In this document: positions 11,908-18,688 of the stretch, piece after piece
Layout: every line of letters starts with the position of its first letter
Numbering within the stretch: position 1 is the stretch's first letter
Assembly (NCBI GenBank): GCA_017467905.1
Contig: JAFUKD010000005.1
Span: 1-64,000, forward strand
Length of the DNA: 64,000 bases
Direction: 5' to 3'
Source of the DNA: Phascolarctobacterium sp.
Lineage (GTDB): Bacteria > Bacillota > Negativicutes > Acidaminococcales > Acidaminococcaceae
The notes under the pieces: model-generated
Told to the model about the DNA's origin: nothing
Database searches by the model: none
Seen by the model: the letters and a program-made list of their open reading frames with translations, nothing else
Translations under genes and position numbers: made by a program

Positions 11908-11935
11908 TTGACATATAAAAAAATAAGAGTAAAAT
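11908..11935 (+). promoter_or_regulatory. Promoter of the sulfur amino-acid operon
   Basis: Consensus TTGACA at 11908-11913 and TAAAAT at 11930-11935, 16 bp apart, in a very AT-rich stretch. The start would be near 11942, about 50 nt before the leader peptide. The remaining spacer 11554-11907 shows no gene; it holds a small hairpin (CAACC-AGC-GGTTG, 11606-11618). Confidence 0.75.
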
Positions 11936-11991
11936 AACACTCAAGCAATTCATATTAATAAAATATGGATTAAAAAGAAGGAGATGAAATT

Positions 11992-12084
11992 ATGAGACAG
12001 TATGCATTGGCAGCTAACAACATCATGTGTAAAATGCAAGCACAAGAAATGTGCTGTTCTTGTTGTGCGCAATTTTATATGTGA
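11992..12084 (+). CDS. Cysteine-rich leader peptide (30 aa)
   Basis: A 30-codon ORF with a strong ribosome-binding site (AAGAAGGAG, 11975-11983). It carries five Cys codons, four in a run ending MCCSCC at codons 20-25, plus four internal or terminal Met. It precedes an antiterminator and terminator pair and an operon for cyst(e)ine or methionine transport and metabolism. This is the layout of a classical attenuation leader: ribosome stalling at the Cys codons when Cys-tRNA is scarce would favour read-through. Function is inferred from architecture; no homologue was searched. Confidence 0.75.
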   Translation: MRQYALAANNIMCKMQAQEMCCSCCAQFYM

Positions 12085-12097
12085 TAAAAATATGGAT

Positions 12098-12126
12098 GCC
12101 TGAATTTAATAAGTAATTCTGCAGGC
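12098..12126 (+). promoter_or_regulatory. Putative antiterminator hairpin
   Basis: GCCTGAATT (12098-12106) can pair with AATTC..CAGGC (12116-12126) with a small bulge. The 3' arm is the 5' arm of the terminator at 12122, so the two structures exclude each other. A competing segment within the Cys codons could not be identified with confidence. Confidence 0.55.
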
Positions 12127-12143
12127 CATAGGCCTGTTTTTTT
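12122..12143 (+). terminator. Leader terminator (attenuator) of the sulfur operon
   Basis: CAGGCC (12122-12127), a 3-nt loop, GGCCTG (12131-12136), then seven T. It lies between the leader peptide and the first structural gene, so it must be overcome for operon expression. Confidence 0.85.
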
Positions 12144-12176
12144 ATGCAAAATCTCACTGTGAAAGGATGAAAGAAA

Positions 12177-13175
12177 ATGGCACAAAGTAAAAAAGAATTA
12201 GTTTTAGCAGCGTTGAACAATAAACCGGTTGATAGAGTTCCTGTAGGTTTTTGGTTTCATTTTACTGAAGTTGCAGAACGTCAGTTAGGTTTAGAAAACA
12301 AAGAGATAGTTGAAAGAAACATTAAAGGACATTTTGCTTTTTACGATAATTTCAAACCCGATTTCGTAAAAATTATGAGCGACGGTTATTTTGGTTATCC
12401 TAATGAAAATTTGCGTAATGTAAAAAGCTTGGCAGATATTGGAGAAATTAAACCTCTTGGCGCAGAACATCCATGGATTAAAGAACAAGTACGATTAGTA
12501 AAAACTTTGAATGATAAATTTGGTGACGAAGTTCTAACATTCTATAATATTTTTGCTCCAGTTAAGTACTTCCGCCTGTTACAAAAAGAAAATGAAAACG
12601 CAGTGGTAGCAAAGCTGATTGCTGAAAACAAAGAAGCCTTCAAAAAAGTTTTGGATGTAATTGCAGAAGACGTTGCAACTTTGAGTAAGCTGGTTATCAC
12701 CGAAGGTAAGGCAACGGGTATCTATTTTAGCGTACAAAATATTCCAGAGCCTTCAATTACAAAAGATGTTTACACAGAAATCATTGCTCCTGGTGAAAAG
12801 GCAATCTTAGCCGCAGCCAACTCTGTTAGCGAAAATAATATTCTGCATATTTGCGGCTTCCATGGTAATCGTAACGATGTTACTTGGTACACTGATTACG
12901 ATGCAAAGGCAGTGAACTGGGCTGTTAATGTCGAAGGAGTTTCCTTAACGGAAGGCAAGAATATTTTTACAGGCAAGGCCTTGATTGGTGGCTTTGATAA
13001 TACAGAAACAGGCTTCTTGTACAGTGGTACTAAAGAACAGGTAGAAGCATTTACCGAAGGCTTGATTAAAGGTGCTGGTAAGGAAGGTATTATCTTGGGT
13101 GCGGATTGCACTGTTCCTAATGATATAGAGCTGCAACGTTTAGAATGGGTGCGTAGTAAAGCTGCAAGCCTATAA
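12177..13175 (+). CDS. Uroporphyrinogen decarboxylase-family protein, zinc-thiol methyltransferase-like
   Basis: 332 residues of the URO-D/MtaA superfamily, with the N-terminal KKELVLAALNNKPVDRVPV pattern. It has the His224-x-Cys226 ... Cys311 pattern (HICGFHG; GADCTVP), which in MtaA/MtbA/CmuA methyltransferases binds zinc and activates a thiol acceptor. True HemE does not carry this zinc pattern, so haem synthesis is unlikely. As first gene of a Cys/Met uptake and lyase operon, it may move methyl groups to or from a sulfur compound. The substrate is unknown, and no corrinoid-protein gene is nearby. Confidence 0.75.
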   Translation: MAQSKKELVLAALNNKPVDRVPVGFWFHFTEVAERQLGLENKEIVERNIKGHFAFYDNFKPDFVKIMSDGYFGYPNENLRNVKSLADIGEIKPLGAEHPWIKEQVRLVKTLNDKFGDEVLTFYNIFAPVKYFRLLQKENENAVVAKLIAENKEAFKKVLDVIAEDVATLSKLVITEGKATGIYFSVQNIPEPSITKDVYTEIIAPGEKAILAAANSVSENNILHICGFHGNRNDVTWYTDYDAKAVNWAVNVEGVSLTEGKNIFTGKALIGGFDNTETGFLYSGTKEQVEAFTEGLIKGAGKEGIILGADCTVPNDIELQRLEWVRSKAASL

Positions 13176-13229
13176 TTTTTTTAAAACTAAAGCATAGTAA
13201 AATGGTCTTGTATTTTAGGGGTGATTGAT

Positions 13230-14114
13230 ATGTTAGCTAAACTTTTGAATAATAATTGGAAGAAACTTTTAGGTGTTACTGCGTTGAGTGTAGTTACTGC
13301 CTTTGCCATAGCTGGCTGCGGTGGCAGTGATAAACCTGCTGATAATGGCAAGAAGGTTGTAACCGTAGCACACCGTTTTGATTACGTTCCCTACTGCTAT
13401 GTTAATGAACAAAACAAACCAGATGGCTTTGAGGTTGCGGTACTACAAGAGGTAAGCAAAAAATTACCTAATTATGAATTTAAATATGTTGCAACTTCTG
13501 ATGACGACTTGCTCATTGGAGTGCAAAGCGGTAAATATAATGTTGGTGTCAAAGGCTCCTGGTATACTAAGGCACGCAAAGATAAATTTATTTTCCCTAA
13601 GAATTACATAGCGGCAAGTGTTATTGGCATTACCTTCCGTGCGGAAGATGCCGATAAGATTTCTGACCTGGCAAGCTTTGCCAAATTTAGCGGTAAACTG
13701 GTTCCAATAGCTCCGCAAAATGCACAATACGCAGTTGTAGAGCAATATAACAGGGAAAATCCTGACAATCAAATTAAATTATTGCCATCTGAAAACTTTA
13801 AGGTTGCCGACGCTTACACCTGGGTTTTGGAAGGACGTTACGATGCATACTTAAATATTGAGCTGAATCATTATAATAATGTAGTTAAAGAGACCGGTAA
13901 GTATCATAAATACGCAGATAAATTAGCGTATGCACGTCACATGGCAATACCTACTTATCCCTTGTTCAATAAAAAGGATGCTCAATTTGCTGCAGATTAT
14001 GACAAAGCCATTGAAGAGCTGCGTAAAGAAGGCAAAATCTTAGAGCTGGAAAACAAGTATTTTGGTGAAGATATCTTTAAATATGTCAAGGGTGACGGAA
14101 GGATAGAAAAATAA
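13230..14114 (+). CDS. Amino-acid ABC transporter substrate-binding lipoprotein
   Basis: Extracytoplasmic binding protein of the polar amino-acid family (SBP family 3), 294 residues. The signal peptide ends in a lipobox (AIAGC at about residues 25-29) followed by a Gly/Ser/Asp linker. The start at 13230 has AGGGGTG 6 nt upstream; the GTG at 13221 overlaps that site. The operon context (Cys leader, two sulfur-lyase genes) points to cystine or methionine-related ligands; the fold alone does not prove it. Confidence 0.85.
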   Translation: MLAKLLNNNWKKLLGVTALSVVTAFAIAGCGGSDKPADNGKKVVTVAHRFDYVPYCYVNEQNKPDGFEVAVLQEVSKKLPNYEFKYVATSDDDLLIGVQSGKYNVGVKGSWYTKARKDKFIFPKNYIAASVIGITFRAEDADKISDLASFAKFSGKLVPIAPQNAQYAVVEQYNRENPDNQIKLLPSENFKVADAYTWVLEGRYDAYLNIELNHYNNVVKETGKYHKYADKLAYARHMAIPTYPLFNKKDAQFAADYDKAIEELRKEGKILELENKYFGEDIFKYVKGDGRIEK

Positions 14115-14132
14115 TTTGAGGAAGTGTTAGCA

Positions 14133-14834
14133 ATGAGACCATTTGAACCGCATTTGATACCGGATTTTATGTTGGATATATTACCTTATCTAAGCGTAAC
14201 CTTGGGAGTTACTTTGGCAACGGTTATTTTTGGGTGTGTGCTTGGAGGTATCATTGCTTATTTAAAATTATATGGGAACAAGCTGCAACGCTTGCTGGCT
14301 AATGCCTATACTTATAGCATGCGCTGCACACCATCTATAATTTTACTCTTCATAGTATTTTACGGGTTACCCAAATTTCTTATTGAAATGTTTGATTACG
14401 ACATCAATGATTTTAACAGGGCATTCTTCGTAATCATTACATTTACCCTTTTGTTCGCAGCAAATATATCCGAAATTATGCGCGCTGCTTATATTGCTGT
14501 GGATAGAGGGCAGTATGAAGCTGCTGTAAGCGTGGGCATGAGTTCTTGGCAGGCTCACTATCGTATTGTTTTTCCTCAAGCTGCTGTAATTGCCTTACCT
14601 AATTTTGGAAATTCTCTTCTGAATTTATTGAAGGAAGGTTCTTTGGCATATACTGTTGGCTTAGTTGACTTGTTAGGAGCCGGAGAGTTAATTGTGGCTC
14701 GCGCTTACGGTGCTTCTGCTTTGGAAGTGTACATTGCTGTAGGCTTAATTTACTATGGCATTGCTGTTGCACTGGAAAAAATATGCTTGCATTTGGAAGA
14801 ACGTTTTTCTCCACAAAAGATAGTTAAGGTATAG
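14133..14834 (+). CDS. Amino-acid ABC transporter permease 1
   Basis: Inner-membrane permease of the HisM/GlnP type, 233 residues with about five membrane segments. The EAA loop that contacts the ATPase is visible (YEAAVSVGMSSWQAHYRIVF). Start chosen at 14133, since GAGGAAG lies just upstream and the GTG at 14124 overlaps it. Followed by its paralogue, so the channel is probably a heterodimer. Confidence 0.9.
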   Translation: MRPFEPHLIPDFMLDILPYLSVTLGVTLATVIFGCVLGGIIAYLKLYGNKLQRLLANAYTYSMRCTPSIILLFIVFYGLPKFLIEMFDYDINDFNRAFFVIITFTLLFAANISEIMRAAYIAVDRGQYEAAVSVGMSSWQAHYRIVFPQAAVIALPNFGNSLLNLLKEGSLAYTVGLVDLLGAGELIVARAYGASALEVYIAVGLIYYGIAVALEKICLHLEERFSPQKIVKV

Positions 14835-14846
14835 GAGGTATGCAGG

Positions 14847-15560
14847 ATGGAACTGAATTATGAATTTATGGCAGATACCTTCTTTAAACTCTTTCATGCA
14901 TTACCGGTTACTCTGTCCATAACTTTTGTGGCATTGCTGGCTGCAACTCCAATTGCCTTCTTACTGGCACTAGCAAGAATAAAAAAGATTAAATACTTAC
15001 AGTTGCCGATAAAGTTGTACATATCTTTGGTAAGAGGTGTTCCCATGATTGTCCAGATACTGGTTATCTACAGCCTATTGCCAAGCTTACTCAACTATTT
15101 ATTCAAGGAGCTGAACATCAGCTACAATATTTTTGATTTAAACACAATTTGGTACGCATATATAATTTTTACTCTTAGCACTTGCGCTATGTTAACGGAA
15201 GTTTTTCGCAGCGCTTTACAGAGCATTGACCGTGGACAGCTGGAGGCAGGTTACTCTGTGGGAATGAGTACCTGGAGAATTTATTTGCGTATCATTATTC
15301 CACAAGCTTTGGTGGTTGCGTTGCCAAGCTTATGCAATATTACTGTTAGTATTATCAAGAATACTTCCCTGGTATTCATGATGGCAGTTAAGGACATAAC
15401 TGCTGTGGGAAAGATTGCTGCTTCTTATGGTTATAACTACATTGAAGCTTATATAGATGTTTTTGTAGTTTACATTATAATTTGCTCCGTAGTCCAAATC
15501 TTATTCAACGTTCTCGAAAAGAGCTTTGGTCGTTTTCGTCAGCGTGTTTTAAGCAACTGA
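14847..15560 (+). CDS. Amino-acid ABC transporter permease 2
   Basis: 237 residues, related to the preceding permease, with the coupling loop LEAGYSVGMSTWRIYLRI and five or so hydrophobic segments. AGGAGG precedes the ATG. It would pair with permease 1 and the ATPase that begins 9 bp downstream. Confidence 0.9.
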   Translation: MELNYEFMADTFFKLFHALPVTLSITFVALLAATPIAFLLALARIKKIKYLQLPIKLYISLVRGVPMIVQILVIYSLLPSLLNYLFKELNISYNIFDLNTIWYAYIIFTLSTCAMLTEVFRSALQSIDRGQLEAGYSVGMSTWRIYLRIIIPQALVVALPSLCNITVSIIKNTSLVFMMAVKDITAVGKIAASYGYNYIEAYIDVFVVYIIICSVVQILFNVLEKSFGRFRQRVLSN

Positions 15561-15569
15561 GGTGGGAAT

Positions 15570-16322
15570 ATGTTAAAGGTAACCAATATTAAAAAGGCTT
15601 TTAAAGACAACAAGGTTCTTAAAGGCGTGGATATAGAAGTAAATAAAGGGGACGTTGTTGTAATACTTGGTGTTAGCGGCAGTGGTAAGACTACTTTGCT
15701 ACGCTGCATAAATTTTTTGGAGAAGGCAGATAGTGGTCAGCTGGATTTTGACGAGCAGCATATTGATTACGCCAAGGTAACCGATAAGGAAATCAATGCT
15801 ATTCGTAAGAAGACTGCCTTTGTTTTTCAAAATTATAATTTGTTTAACAATAAGACTGCTTTGGAGAACGTAACTGAGGGTTTAATTTATGGAAGGAATG
15901 TTCCCCAAAGCGAAGCTGTTAGCTTAGCTAAGAAGGCACTCGATAAAGTAGGACTTTCTGAACGGTATGACTATTACCCCAGCCAATTGAGCGGCGGTCA
16001 GCAGCAACGTGTGGGTATCGCACGGGCTATTGCCATTGAACCGGAGGTTATTCTTTTTGATGAGCCTACCTCTGCTTTAGACCCGGAGCTTATAGGCGAA
16101 GTTTTGGGAGTAATAAAAAAGTTAGCAGAAGAGGGGAAGACGATGGTTATTGTTACCCACGAGATGCAGTTTGCCAAGGAGGTTGCTACTCATGCTATCT
16201 TTATGGATGACGGCGTTATTGTGGAGCAAGGTAAACCGGAAAAGATTTTTACTAATCCTGAAGAAGAGCGTACAAGAAAATTTTTGCGTCGCATTCTTCC
16301 TGAATCAGAATATATTATTTAA
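15570..16322 (+). CDS. Amino-acid ABC transporter ATPase
   Basis: 250-residue ATPase of the GlnQ/HisP group. Walker [10 protein letters not shown] (about 34-42), signature LSGGQQQR, Walker [13 protein letters not shown] and the switch His in VTHEM are all intact. It powers the two preceding permeases. Confidence 0.95.
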
Positions 16323-16351: not shown

Positions 16352-17491
16352 ATGGAATTTGCAACAAAATGTATTCACGCTATGGGGGAGAATGATTATA
16401 CGGGTTCTATTACCGCTCCCATATATATTTCTTCGACATTTGCGCATCCCAAGCTGGGAGATACTACTGGCTTTAACTATACTCGTGAATCTAATCCAAC
16501 TCGCGAGCGCTTGGAAAAGCTTATGACTGAATTAGAAGGTGGCGTGGATGCACTTGCCTTTGCTTCTGGTATGGCAGCGATCGATACGGTGATGAACTTG
16601 TTTGCTCCGGGAGAGCATATCGTTACGGGAGATGATTTGTACGGAGGTTCCTTCCGTCTGTTTCGTAGTATCAATGCCAAAAATGGTGTAGAGTTTACTT
16701 CGGTACATACCTCCAGTATCGAGGATATTATTAGAGCCATTCGCCCAAACAGTAGGGCAATCTTTTTGGAAACACCCACCAATCCCATGATGGAGGTTTC
16801 TGATTTGCGCGCCATCTGCAGGGTTGCCAAGGCAAATAAGCTACTGGTAATTGTGGACAATACTTTCTTGACACCTTATTTCCAAAAGCCCTTGGAGCTG
16901 GGAGCTGACATTGTTATTCATAGCGGCACCAAGTATTTGTGCGGTCACAATGATGTGCTGGCAGGCTTTACTGTTACCAATAACAAGGAGCTTGCTGAAA
17001 AATTACGATTGCTATATAAAACTACAGGCGCCTGTTTGGGCGCATTAGATGCATGGCTTGTTATTCGCGGTATTAAGACCTTGCACTTACGAATGGAAAA
17101 GCATCAGGAAAATGCTTTGGCTATTGCACAATGGTTAAAGAGCCAACCAAAGGTAAATAGAGTATTATATCCTGGCTTGCCTGAGCATCCCGGTTATGTA
17201 GAAAACTGTTTACAGGCAAGTGGTTTTGGTGGGATGATTTCTTTTAGCGTGGATACACCGGAAACAGCACGCCAAATTTTAGAAGGGGTGAAGGTGATTC
17301 AGTTTGCTGAAAGCCTTGGCGGTACAGAAAGCTTGATTACTTATCCCATACGTCAAACCCACGCTGATTTGCCACCTGAAGAATGTAAGGAGAAAGGTAT
17401 TACAGATTGCCTGCTGCGCCTTTCTGTTGGCATTGAAGATAAAAAGGATTTAATTGCAGATTTAGAGCAGGCTTTTGCTAAGGCGAAGTAA
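16352..17491 (+). CDS. Cys/Met metabolism PLP enzyme (cystathionine gamma-lyase or methionine gamma-lyase type)
   Basis: 379 residues of the trans-sulfuration PLP family. The Schiff-base lysine is Lys194 in SGTKYLCGH; YTRESNPTRERLE and ASGMAAI are typical. The family covers cystathionine gamma-synthase, gamma-lyase, beta-lyase and methionine gamma-lyase, which cannot be separated by eye. GGGGGAG precedes the ATG. Being in an uptake operon beside a MalY-type lyase favours degradation or interconversion of imported sulfur amino acids. Confidence 0.85.
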   Translation: MEFATKCIHAMGENDYTGSITAPIYISSTFAHPKLGDTTGFNYTRESNPTRERLEKLMTELEGGVDALAFASGMAAIDTVMNLFAPGEHIVTGDDLYGGSFRLFRSINAKNGVEFTSVHTSSIEDIIRAIRPNSRAIFLETPTNPMMEVSDLRAICRVAKANKLLVIVDNTFLTPYFQKPLELGADIVIHSGTKYLCGHNDVLAGFTVTNNKELAEKLRLLYKTTGACLGALDAWLVIRGIKTLHLRMEKHQENALAIAQWLKSQPKVNRVLYPGLPEHPGYVENCLQASGFGGMISFSVDTPETARQILEGVKVIQFAESLGGTESLITYPIRQTHADLPPEECKEKGITDCLLRLSVGIEDKKDLIADLEQAFAKAK

Positions 17492-17500
17492 GAGGTTTTT

Positions 17501-18688
17501 ATGAAGAAGTACGATTTTGACAAGGTTACCGAGCGTAGGCATACAGGCTGTTTAAAATATGATTTTGCTGTACAGCGGGGAAGACCAGCTGACGTACTAC
17601 CATTTTGGGTAGCGGATATGGACTTTCCTGTGGCAGAAGAAATAAGTGAAGCCTTGGTAAAGCGTTGTAAGCATGGAATATTTGGATACAGCGAGGCTGA
17701 ATCCGGTTACTTCGCTGCGCTGAGTGCCTGGTATAAGAATAATTTTGATTGGGTGGTGCAGGAGGAATGGCTTACCAAAACTCCCGGTATTGTTTTTGCA
17801 TTGGCAGCTGCAGTAAATGCCTTTACCAAACCTGGGGAAGCGGTGCTTATCCAGCGCCCGGTTTATTATCCATTTACAGAAGTCATTGAGGAAAACGGAC
17901 GCAGGCTTGTAAATTCTCCCTTGAAGCTTAAGGAAGACCTTTACGAAATGGACTTCGAGGATTTAGAAAAGAAAATCGTTGCAGAAAATGTTAAGCTGAT
18001 GATTTTATGCTCCCCTCATAATCCGGTAGGACGTGTGTGGAGCGAGCAGGAGCTTCGTACTGTGGGGGATATCTGTCTTAAACACGGAGTAATTGTCATC
18101 AGCGACGAGATACATTCCGATTTTGTTTGGGGAGAGCATAAGCACACGGTGTTTGCCAATTTGGGAGAAGCTTATGCGCAAAACTGCATTGTTTGTACCG
18201 CACCGAGCAAGACCTTTAATTTGGCAGGCTTACAGGTTTCAAATATCTTCATTCCCAATCCGAAGCTACGTCAAGCATTTAGGAAAAGCGTTACTGCTGC
18301 AGGCTACAGCCAGTTAAATTCCTTGGGCTTACTTGCCTGCGAGGCTGCTTATAAATATGGTTCTGTTTGGTTGGAGGAGCTAAGGGCGTATCTTTACACT
18401 AATATTATTTTTGTAGATGCGTACCTAAAAACTCATCTTCCTAAATTAAGATTACTTCCACCCCAGGGAACATACCTTTTGTGGATTGACTTTAGCCAAA
18501 TCGGGATGACTGCCAGGGAAAGAGAGCAGTGGCTTTTGCACGAGGCGAAGCTGTGGCTGGACGATGGTTATATTTTTGGTGAAGAGGGTAATGATTTTGA
18601 GCGCATCAATATTGCTTGTCCTCGCAGTACCTTGCTGCAGGGCTTGGAGCAATTAAAAAAGGCTTACGATAAAATTGTAATTCCATAA
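17501..18688 (+). CDS. patB: MalY/PatB-type aminotransferase, probable cystathionine beta-lyase
   Basis: 395-residue fold-type I PLP enzyme. The lysine is Lys237 in APSKTFNLAG; the substrate and cofactor motifs FWVADMDFPV, SPHNPVGRVW and SDEIHSDFVW are those of the MalY/PatB group, whose members usually have cysteine-S-conjugate or cystathionine beta-lyase activity. It starts 9 bp after the previous lyase and is the last gene of the operon, closed by a terminator shared with fba on the opposite strand. Confidence 0.85.
   Translation: MKKYDFDKVTERRHTGCLKYDFAVQRGRPADVLPFWVADMDFPVAEEISEALVKRCKHGIFGYSEAESGYFAALSAWYKNNFDWVVQEEWLTKTPGIVFALAAAVNAFTKPGEAVLIQRPVYYPFTEVIEENGRRLVNSPLKLKEDLYEMDFEDLEKKIVAENVKLMILCSPHNPVGRVWSEQELRTVGDICLKHGVIVISDEIHSDFVWGEHKHTVFANLGEAYAQNCIVCTAPSKTFNLAGLQVSNIFIPNPKLRQAFRKSVTAAGYSQLNSLGLLACEAAYKYGSVWLEELRAYLYTNIIFVDAYLKTHLPKLRLLPPQGTYLLWIDFSQIGMTAREREQWLLHEAKLWLDDGYIFGEEGNDFERINIACPRSTLLQGLEQLKKAYDKIVIP

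Follow-up and report, generated by a model that had tools for sequence, protein, structure and literature searches.

A cysteine-codon leader and probable transcription attenuator before a cystine-type transport operon in Phascolarctobacterium

The operon and its leader region

The window (the whole stretch of 64,000 nucleotides that was analysed) lies on contig C1 of a 1.84-Mb Phascolarctobacterium genome. It carries an operon that opens with a gene for a URO-D/MtaA-like protein and continues with the substrate-binding protein, two permeases and ATPase of an ABC transporter, a Cys/Met metabolism PLP enzyme and a PatB-family C-S lyase (Table 1). The transporter is of the polar amino-acid type and its substrate is presumably cystine-like. 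A preliminary description of this DNA had recognized the transporter and the two Cys/Met PLP lyases, and both stand; gene 1, a member of the URO-D family, it had left unnamed. The nearest relative carrying the operon is Phascolarctobacterium sp. RGIG3958 (G001), and same-family kin that carry it include Acidaminococcus provencensis and Succiniclasticum. This kinship places the genome, that of a gut bacterium, in the Acidaminococcaceae. The URO-D/MtaA-like gene is tied to a cystine-type ABC transporter in Negativicutes, Clostridia, Enterococcus and Treponema, and the leader described here links this unexplained gene with cysteine metabolism.

Ahead of gene 1, the promoter (near-consensus), strong ribosome-binding site, 30-codon open reading frame (ORF) and Cys-Cys-Ser-Cys-Cys run at codons 21 to 25 that had been described were all confirmed in the sequence. 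The ORF is preceded by AGAAGGAGATGAAATT, and its cysteine codons stand at 12028, 12052, 12055, 12061 and 12064. Three elements of an attenuator are found between promoter and gene 1: a short ORF with a start codon and Shine-Dalgarno sequence, a cluster of codons for an amino acid that fits the operon (CCSCC, before genes for a cystine-like transporter and C-S lyases) and an intrinsic terminator. A terminator scan returned three terminator-like sites, against 0.1 expected in shuffles. Two of these are one hairpin within the leader, read on both strands, and 12121-12143 is the sole real candidate; the perfect terminator previously placed at 12122-12143 is confirmed there as a 7-bp stem followed by a T-run. 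The region 11945-12176 as a whole folds with z = -2.84. The genome was found to hold a single tRNA-Cys (GCA).

AT-rich inverted repeats (for example, TTCATATATGAATAATATGAA) lie directly 3' of the -10 element in the window, at L107 in G042 (upstream of the binding-protein gene), at L193 in Succiniclasticum and at L284 in Clostridia, and are a possible operator for a common sulfur regulator. Treponema promoters carry a different palindrome, ACCTAC...GTAGGT.

Table 1. Features of the leader region and operon (positions in the window; for Treponema, positions in the named loci)
Feature	Position	Strand	Basis or remark
Sigma-70-type promoter, TTGACA-16 nt-TAAAAT	11908..11935	+	11/12 consensus matches
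AT-rich inverted repeat just 3' of promoter; putative 5'-UTR hairpin or transcription-factor operator	11947..11971	+	Fold
Shine-Dalgarno sequence, AAGGAG	11979..11984	+	7 nt 5' of leader ATG
Leader ORF, 30 codons, translation MRQYALAANNIMCKMQAQEMCCSCCAQFYM	11992..12084	+	0/93 bases differ from nearest relative
Predicted hairpin enclosing all Cys codons and the stop; candidate protector (1:2) when the ribosome is absent	12022..12085	+	Minimum-energy fold
Cys-Cys-Ser-Cys-Cys control codons 21-25, TGC TGT TCT TGT TGT	12052..12066	+	Sole in-frame intergenic CCxCC of the genome
Candidate antiterminator	12091..12130	+	-10.4 kcal/mol; p = 0.12 versus shuffles
Intrinsic terminator, GCAGGCC-ATA-GGCCTGT-TTTTTT, 7-bp stem, 3-nt loop, seven T	12121..12143	+	Terminator scan
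URO-D/MtaA-like protein, operon gene 1	12177..13175	+	PF01208, 7e-19
ABC transporter substrate-binding protein, family 3	13221..14114	+	PF00497
ABC transporter permease	14124..14834	+	Top NCBIfam match cystine permease, under cut-off
ABC transporter permease, second	14847..15560	+	
ABC transporter ATPase	15570..16322	+	Top NCBIfam match TcyN, under cut-off
Cys/Met metabolism PLP enzyme (cystathionine gamma-lyase/synthase family)	16352..17491	+	PF01053, 7e-144
PatB-family C-S lyase	17501..18688	+	TIGR04350, 473 bits versus cut-off 340
Treponema leaders	L251:3779-3856, L258:3689-3766, L265:4007-4078, L266:4767-4844, L268:4795-4872		

Uniqueness and conservation of the leader

The genome of 1.84 Mb contains 26 matches to TGYTGYNNNTGYTGY, the DNA pattern that encodes CysCysXCysCys. 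All but one of these matches (25 of 26) fall inside larger ORFs, in another frame or on the opposite strand, and only the leader copy is in frame and intergenic; across 63 genomes matches to the pattern swamp every genome, and it is informative for the home genome only. A scan of 1.826 Mb, all but about 17 kb of the genome, gave 322 intergenic short ORFs with a Shine-Dalgarno sequence, five of which have at least three cysteines in six codons. Among these five, the leader alone precedes a sulfur operon, as far as the loci were read. The other four comprise two without a sulfur gene downstream and two recognizable small proteins, which by eye we take to be DUF951-like and FeoB-associated-like.

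Between the window and its nearest relative there are no differences in the 152 bases of leader plus terminator, whereas in the same genome pair change amounts to 2.0% in the upstream intergenic DNA and to 2-4% in the operon genes; at 2%, the chance of zero differences in 152 bases is about 0.04 (hand calculation). A search for the leader peptide over the order returned only the near relative and three weak matches. At the locus of the strongest weak match, L013, no leader of the window's kind is present, and the other two lie inside long open frames. As to whether the cysteine codons would be kept while the rest of the peptide drifts, what recurs is the cysteine cluster and the layout, as described next; conservation of the whole peptide stops at the nearest relative.

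Cysteine leaders before orthologous operons

Searches for the binding protein and for the URO-D protein covered 380 genomes of the class; a binding-protein alignment was made from a collection of 84,980 species, with 80 loci kept. The preliminary description had proposed looking for the same layout of leader and terminator before orthologous operons, and it is present in four further lineages. Cys-run leaders followed by an intrinsic terminator precede the operon in the Succiniclasticum group (three genomes; MKKSAVLRRAESCSMRTLAAVMCMCCCPCALSMNICRTRNACLCLLT), in Youngiibacter fragilis (MKMDFQVSSKNCICCHSKASSMCCCICHGKISYEYKP), in Anaerobium acetethylicum (...SCCMCMCCKQ...) and in two Enterococcus (...CQCMPCSLAYP and ...CLCASCSLAYL). 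The peptides and terminators of these lineages are mutually unlike; only the cysteine cluster recurs, and its spacing also varies among the terminator-bearing lineages (CCSCC, CMCCCPC, CCCIC, CCMCMCC and CQCMPC). Control codons are thus found at the orthologous position while the other residues differ, as would be looked for in an attenuator.

Cysteine leaders of two further forms were found. At five Treponema loci the operon is preceded by a conserved leader, FEKLVRENFRNGxMCxCC, with no obvious intrinsic terminator. Two Clostridia genomes (L282 and L284, upstream of the URO-D gene) have the leader MKxNHVNxxYLSDxSRHEICC[RP], its cysteine pair just before the stop, with no clear terminator; L221 was grouped with this leader. 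In Treponema, a paralogous leader (VMR[AS]CC) also stands before an O-acetylhomoserine-sulfhydrylase-like gene at L277 and L279, and several loci have a short hairpin with compensating changes 3' of the leader stop.

As a control, clustering of each of the 20 residues was evaluated in the upstream short ORFs of the 80 loci. Cysteine was clustered at 13 loci, leucine at seven and serine at six, and clusters of His, Trp, Met, Pro or Gln were found at none of the 80; cysteine makes up only 1.6% of residues in the large ORFs of the home genome. The 13 cysteine loci include close kin and represent about six lineages, not 13 events. At G042, from the same family as the window, neither a T-box nor a Cys-run leader was found before the operon, and the same holds for most Selenomonas-type loci in the scans that were run.

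T-boxes and apparent exchange of sensors

A T-box (RF00230) precedes the operon in Acidaminococcus provencensis, in Megasphaera species, in a Veillonellaceae isolate and in two Succiniclasticum, and its specifier is UGC (Cys) in every case where it is readable. Unlike these orthologues, the operon of the window has no T-box match at gathering score; the only Rfam matches in the window at that score are 5S rRNA and 6S RNA, with no S-box/SAM or other riboswitch before the operon. The home genome has 11 T-boxes elsewhere, and in the 10 whose alignments were read we see no UGC specifier.

On its well-supported branches, the binding-protein tree requires the label 'leader' to change at least five times. 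In Succiniclasticum, the three rows with a leader are nested inside the two with a T-box, which suggests that a leader attenuator can replace a T-box within one genus. A simple swap in place was rejected: the DNA upstream of the operon is unlike between the leader and T-box kinds, and the operon therefore lies at different sites (L193:5640-6000, L194 and L195 for one kind of sensor, L192 and L029 for the other). In this genus the operon may move as a unit together with its sensor. Overall, the cysteine sensor of the operon seems to have been exchanged repeatedly, among a Cys leader, a Cys T-box and a different Cys peptide.

Predicted folding of the leader transcripts

The preliminary description had drawn an antiterminator at 12098-12126 that shares bases with the terminator. 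Such a pairing is possible and does share terminator bases, but it is better drawn as 12091-12130, where 12091-12095, 12097-12099 and 12102-12106 would pair with 12115-12119, 12121-12123 and 12126-12130 and the predicted structure would take in the 5' arm and loop of the terminator. Against shuffled spacers (500 shuffles for the window) its strength has p = 0.12, and the other leaders outside Enterococcus gave 0.19, 0.09 and 0.05. The two Enterococcus leaders, in which no classical antiterminator was found, gave 0.84 and 1.0. Combined by hand calculation, p is about 0.02 for the four non-Enterococcus leaders and about 0.10 for all six. The window's antiterminator taken singly is not significant, and we therefore count the switch of fold between antiterminator and terminator only as plausible.

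For the window, the terminator is favoured at equilibrium in all states as soon as its 3' arm has been transcribed, and the calculation does not distinguish the ribosome-free from the stalled leader. With a ribosome at the stop codon, 12091-12095 would be covered and the predicted antiterminator weakened from about -10.5 to about -6.6 kcal/mol, at which it remains; with the ribosome stalled on the Cys run instead, 12091-12095 would stay free to pair. In Succiniclasticum, the terminator 5' arm is predicted to pair with upstream sequence at a mean of about 0.7 in the stalled state versus 0.17 with the ribosome at the stop; in Youngiibacter the values are 0.67 and 0.16. The predicted contrast between stall and stop is thus clear in these two leaders and partial in the window.

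Proposed mechanism and alternative explanations

We consider it probable that the leader region is a ribosome-mediated transcription attenuator of the trp/his type that senses the charging of Cys-tRNA. The preliminary description had made this proposal, and the Cys-run leaders in four further lineages and the UGC T-boxes at the same place in relatives support it. That the sensed amino acid would be cysteine follows mainly from the recurrence of the Cys codons and from the Cys specificity of the T-boxes, and the two agree. In this mechanism RNA polymerase would start just 3' of the promoter and a ribosome would begin the leader. With Cys-tRNA well charged, the ribosome would clear codons 21-25, end at 12082-12084 and leave, upon which the terminator would form and transcription would halt before the operon. 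With charged Cys-tRNA scarce, the ribosome would stall on the Cys run and open the 12022-12085 hairpin; 12091-12106, once freed, would pair with 12115-12130 and occupy the terminator 5' arm, and the polymerase would continue into the operon of URO-D, cystine-type ABC transporter and C-S lyase genes. Translation of the leader, the ribosome stall and the switch of fold are all steps that we infer.

The same terminator could be controlled by the peptide itself, as a nascent-chain or thiol/metal sensor whose cysteine cluster stalls or releases the ribosome on metal, an oxidant or a sulfur metabolite. A CCxCC run could bind metal, and the Treponema peptide is strongly conserved outside its cysteines (FEKLVRENFRNG), beyond the needs of codon sensing. 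The terminator-bearing lineages, however, share the cysteine cluster only, with the rest of the peptide and the cysteine spacing differing, and the T-boxes of relatives, with their Cys specifier, read tRNA charging; we regard a peptide sensor as unlikely. Control by a transcription factor at the promoter, with leader and terminator minor or constitutive, would leave unexplained both the clustering of cysteine in unrelated leaders and the Cys T-boxes. We think this quite improbable as the main control, even with AT-rich inverted repeats shared in position by G042, Clostridia L284, Succiniclasticum L193 and the window, palindromes in the Treponema promoters and most Selenomonas-type loci having neither leader nor T-box in our scans; the two layers of control can coexist.

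It is very unlikely that the short ORF codes for a Cys-rich small protein that has a function and a terminator of its own and lies ahead of the operon by chance. The home genome does contain Cys-rich small proteins followed by terminators (C11:40015 and C31:7125), but these are recognizable by eye, whereas the leader has no NCBIfam match up to E = 10 (nothing convincing was found for the other leaders either) and was found in one other genome only. Moreover, no second promoter-like site was found between the terminator and gene 1, and in other lineages Cys-rich ORFs of unrelated sequence occupy the same position. Least credible, to a degree that we would all but discount, is a chance Cys-rich short ORF ahead of an ordinary terminator: CCxCC is unique in the genome in the sense given above, there are no substitutions in 152 bases and the arrangement recurs at the same operon in further lineages, against which stand the commonness of short ORFs and the p of 0.12 for the antiterminator alone.

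Beyond attenuation in Phascolarctobacterium, we tentatively propose, with confidence a little short of even, that translated Cys-codon leaders are a widespread, hitherto undescribed class of cysteine sensor in Bacillota and Spirochaetota, of several origins, and have traded places with Cys T-boxes ahead of a single conserved URO-D/cystine-transport operon. In the same proposal, the leader seen in Treponema (FEKLVRENFRNGxMCxCC), a form of which also precedes O-acetylhomoserine sulfhydrylase, would work without an intrinsic terminator.

Comparison with known systems

Known sensors of cysteine supply in Bacillota are T-boxes, S-boxes and CymR. Full-text searches of the open-licence literature turned up no Cys leader from either Bacillota or Spirochaetota, and what would be new to the specialist is that Cys leaders and Cys T-boxes appear repeatedly on one operon. 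The cysteine cluster also offers a handle by which sulfur-uptake operons can be found and named in unannotated gut genomes.

The window leader resembles the trp, his and leu attenuators of Proteobacteria in its presumably translated leader, where codons for the operon's amino acid are clustered, its predicted overlapping alternative hairpins and its intrinsic terminator; it differs in that the amino acid is cysteine, the host belongs to the Negativicutes (Bacillota) and the antiterminator is weaker and predicted. Polycysteine leaders have been predicted in mycobacteria and other Actinobacteria (PMC1262725); according to PMC9094748 and PMC13236596, such leaders were put to the test by Canestrari et al. 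(2020, doi 10.1111/mmi.14498). These share with the window a short-ORF run of Cys codons before cysteine or sulfur genes and the proposed sensing of Cys-tRNA. The mycobacterial leaders, however, are leaderless and have no conserved intrinsic terminator, with Rho suggested (PMC1262725), whereas the window has a 5' UTR, a strong Shine-Dalgarno sequence and a perfect intrinsic terminator, and so is not of the mycobacterial type. The uORFC-8-2 element before cysS in Rhodobacterales (PMC8632094) is similar in its tandem Cys codons, hairpins, terminal U-run and predicted attenuation by low Cys-tRNA, and unlike the window in belonging to Alphaproteobacteria, preceding a tRNA-synthetase gene and having two Cys codons.

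Two comparisons bear on the suggestion of the preliminary description that a translated Cys leader would be a distinct solution for this operon. The UGC T-box (RF00230) precedes the orthologous operon, senses the charging of tRNA-Cys and ends in a terminator switch, but recognizes the tRNA itself through RNA structure and involves no translation, and a translated leader is indeed unusual where relatives use Cys T-boxes. Leader-peptide attenuation in Firmicutes nevertheless has a precedent in the His leader peptide before hisS/hisZ in bacilli (PMC2965389), a regular Firmicutes leader peptide that replaces a T-box on the same gene, although there the amino acid is histidine, the hosts are bacilli and the gene is for a tRNA synthetase. 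A Cys leader on an operon that is under a Cys T-box in relatives thus provides a natural comparison of two solutions to one task.
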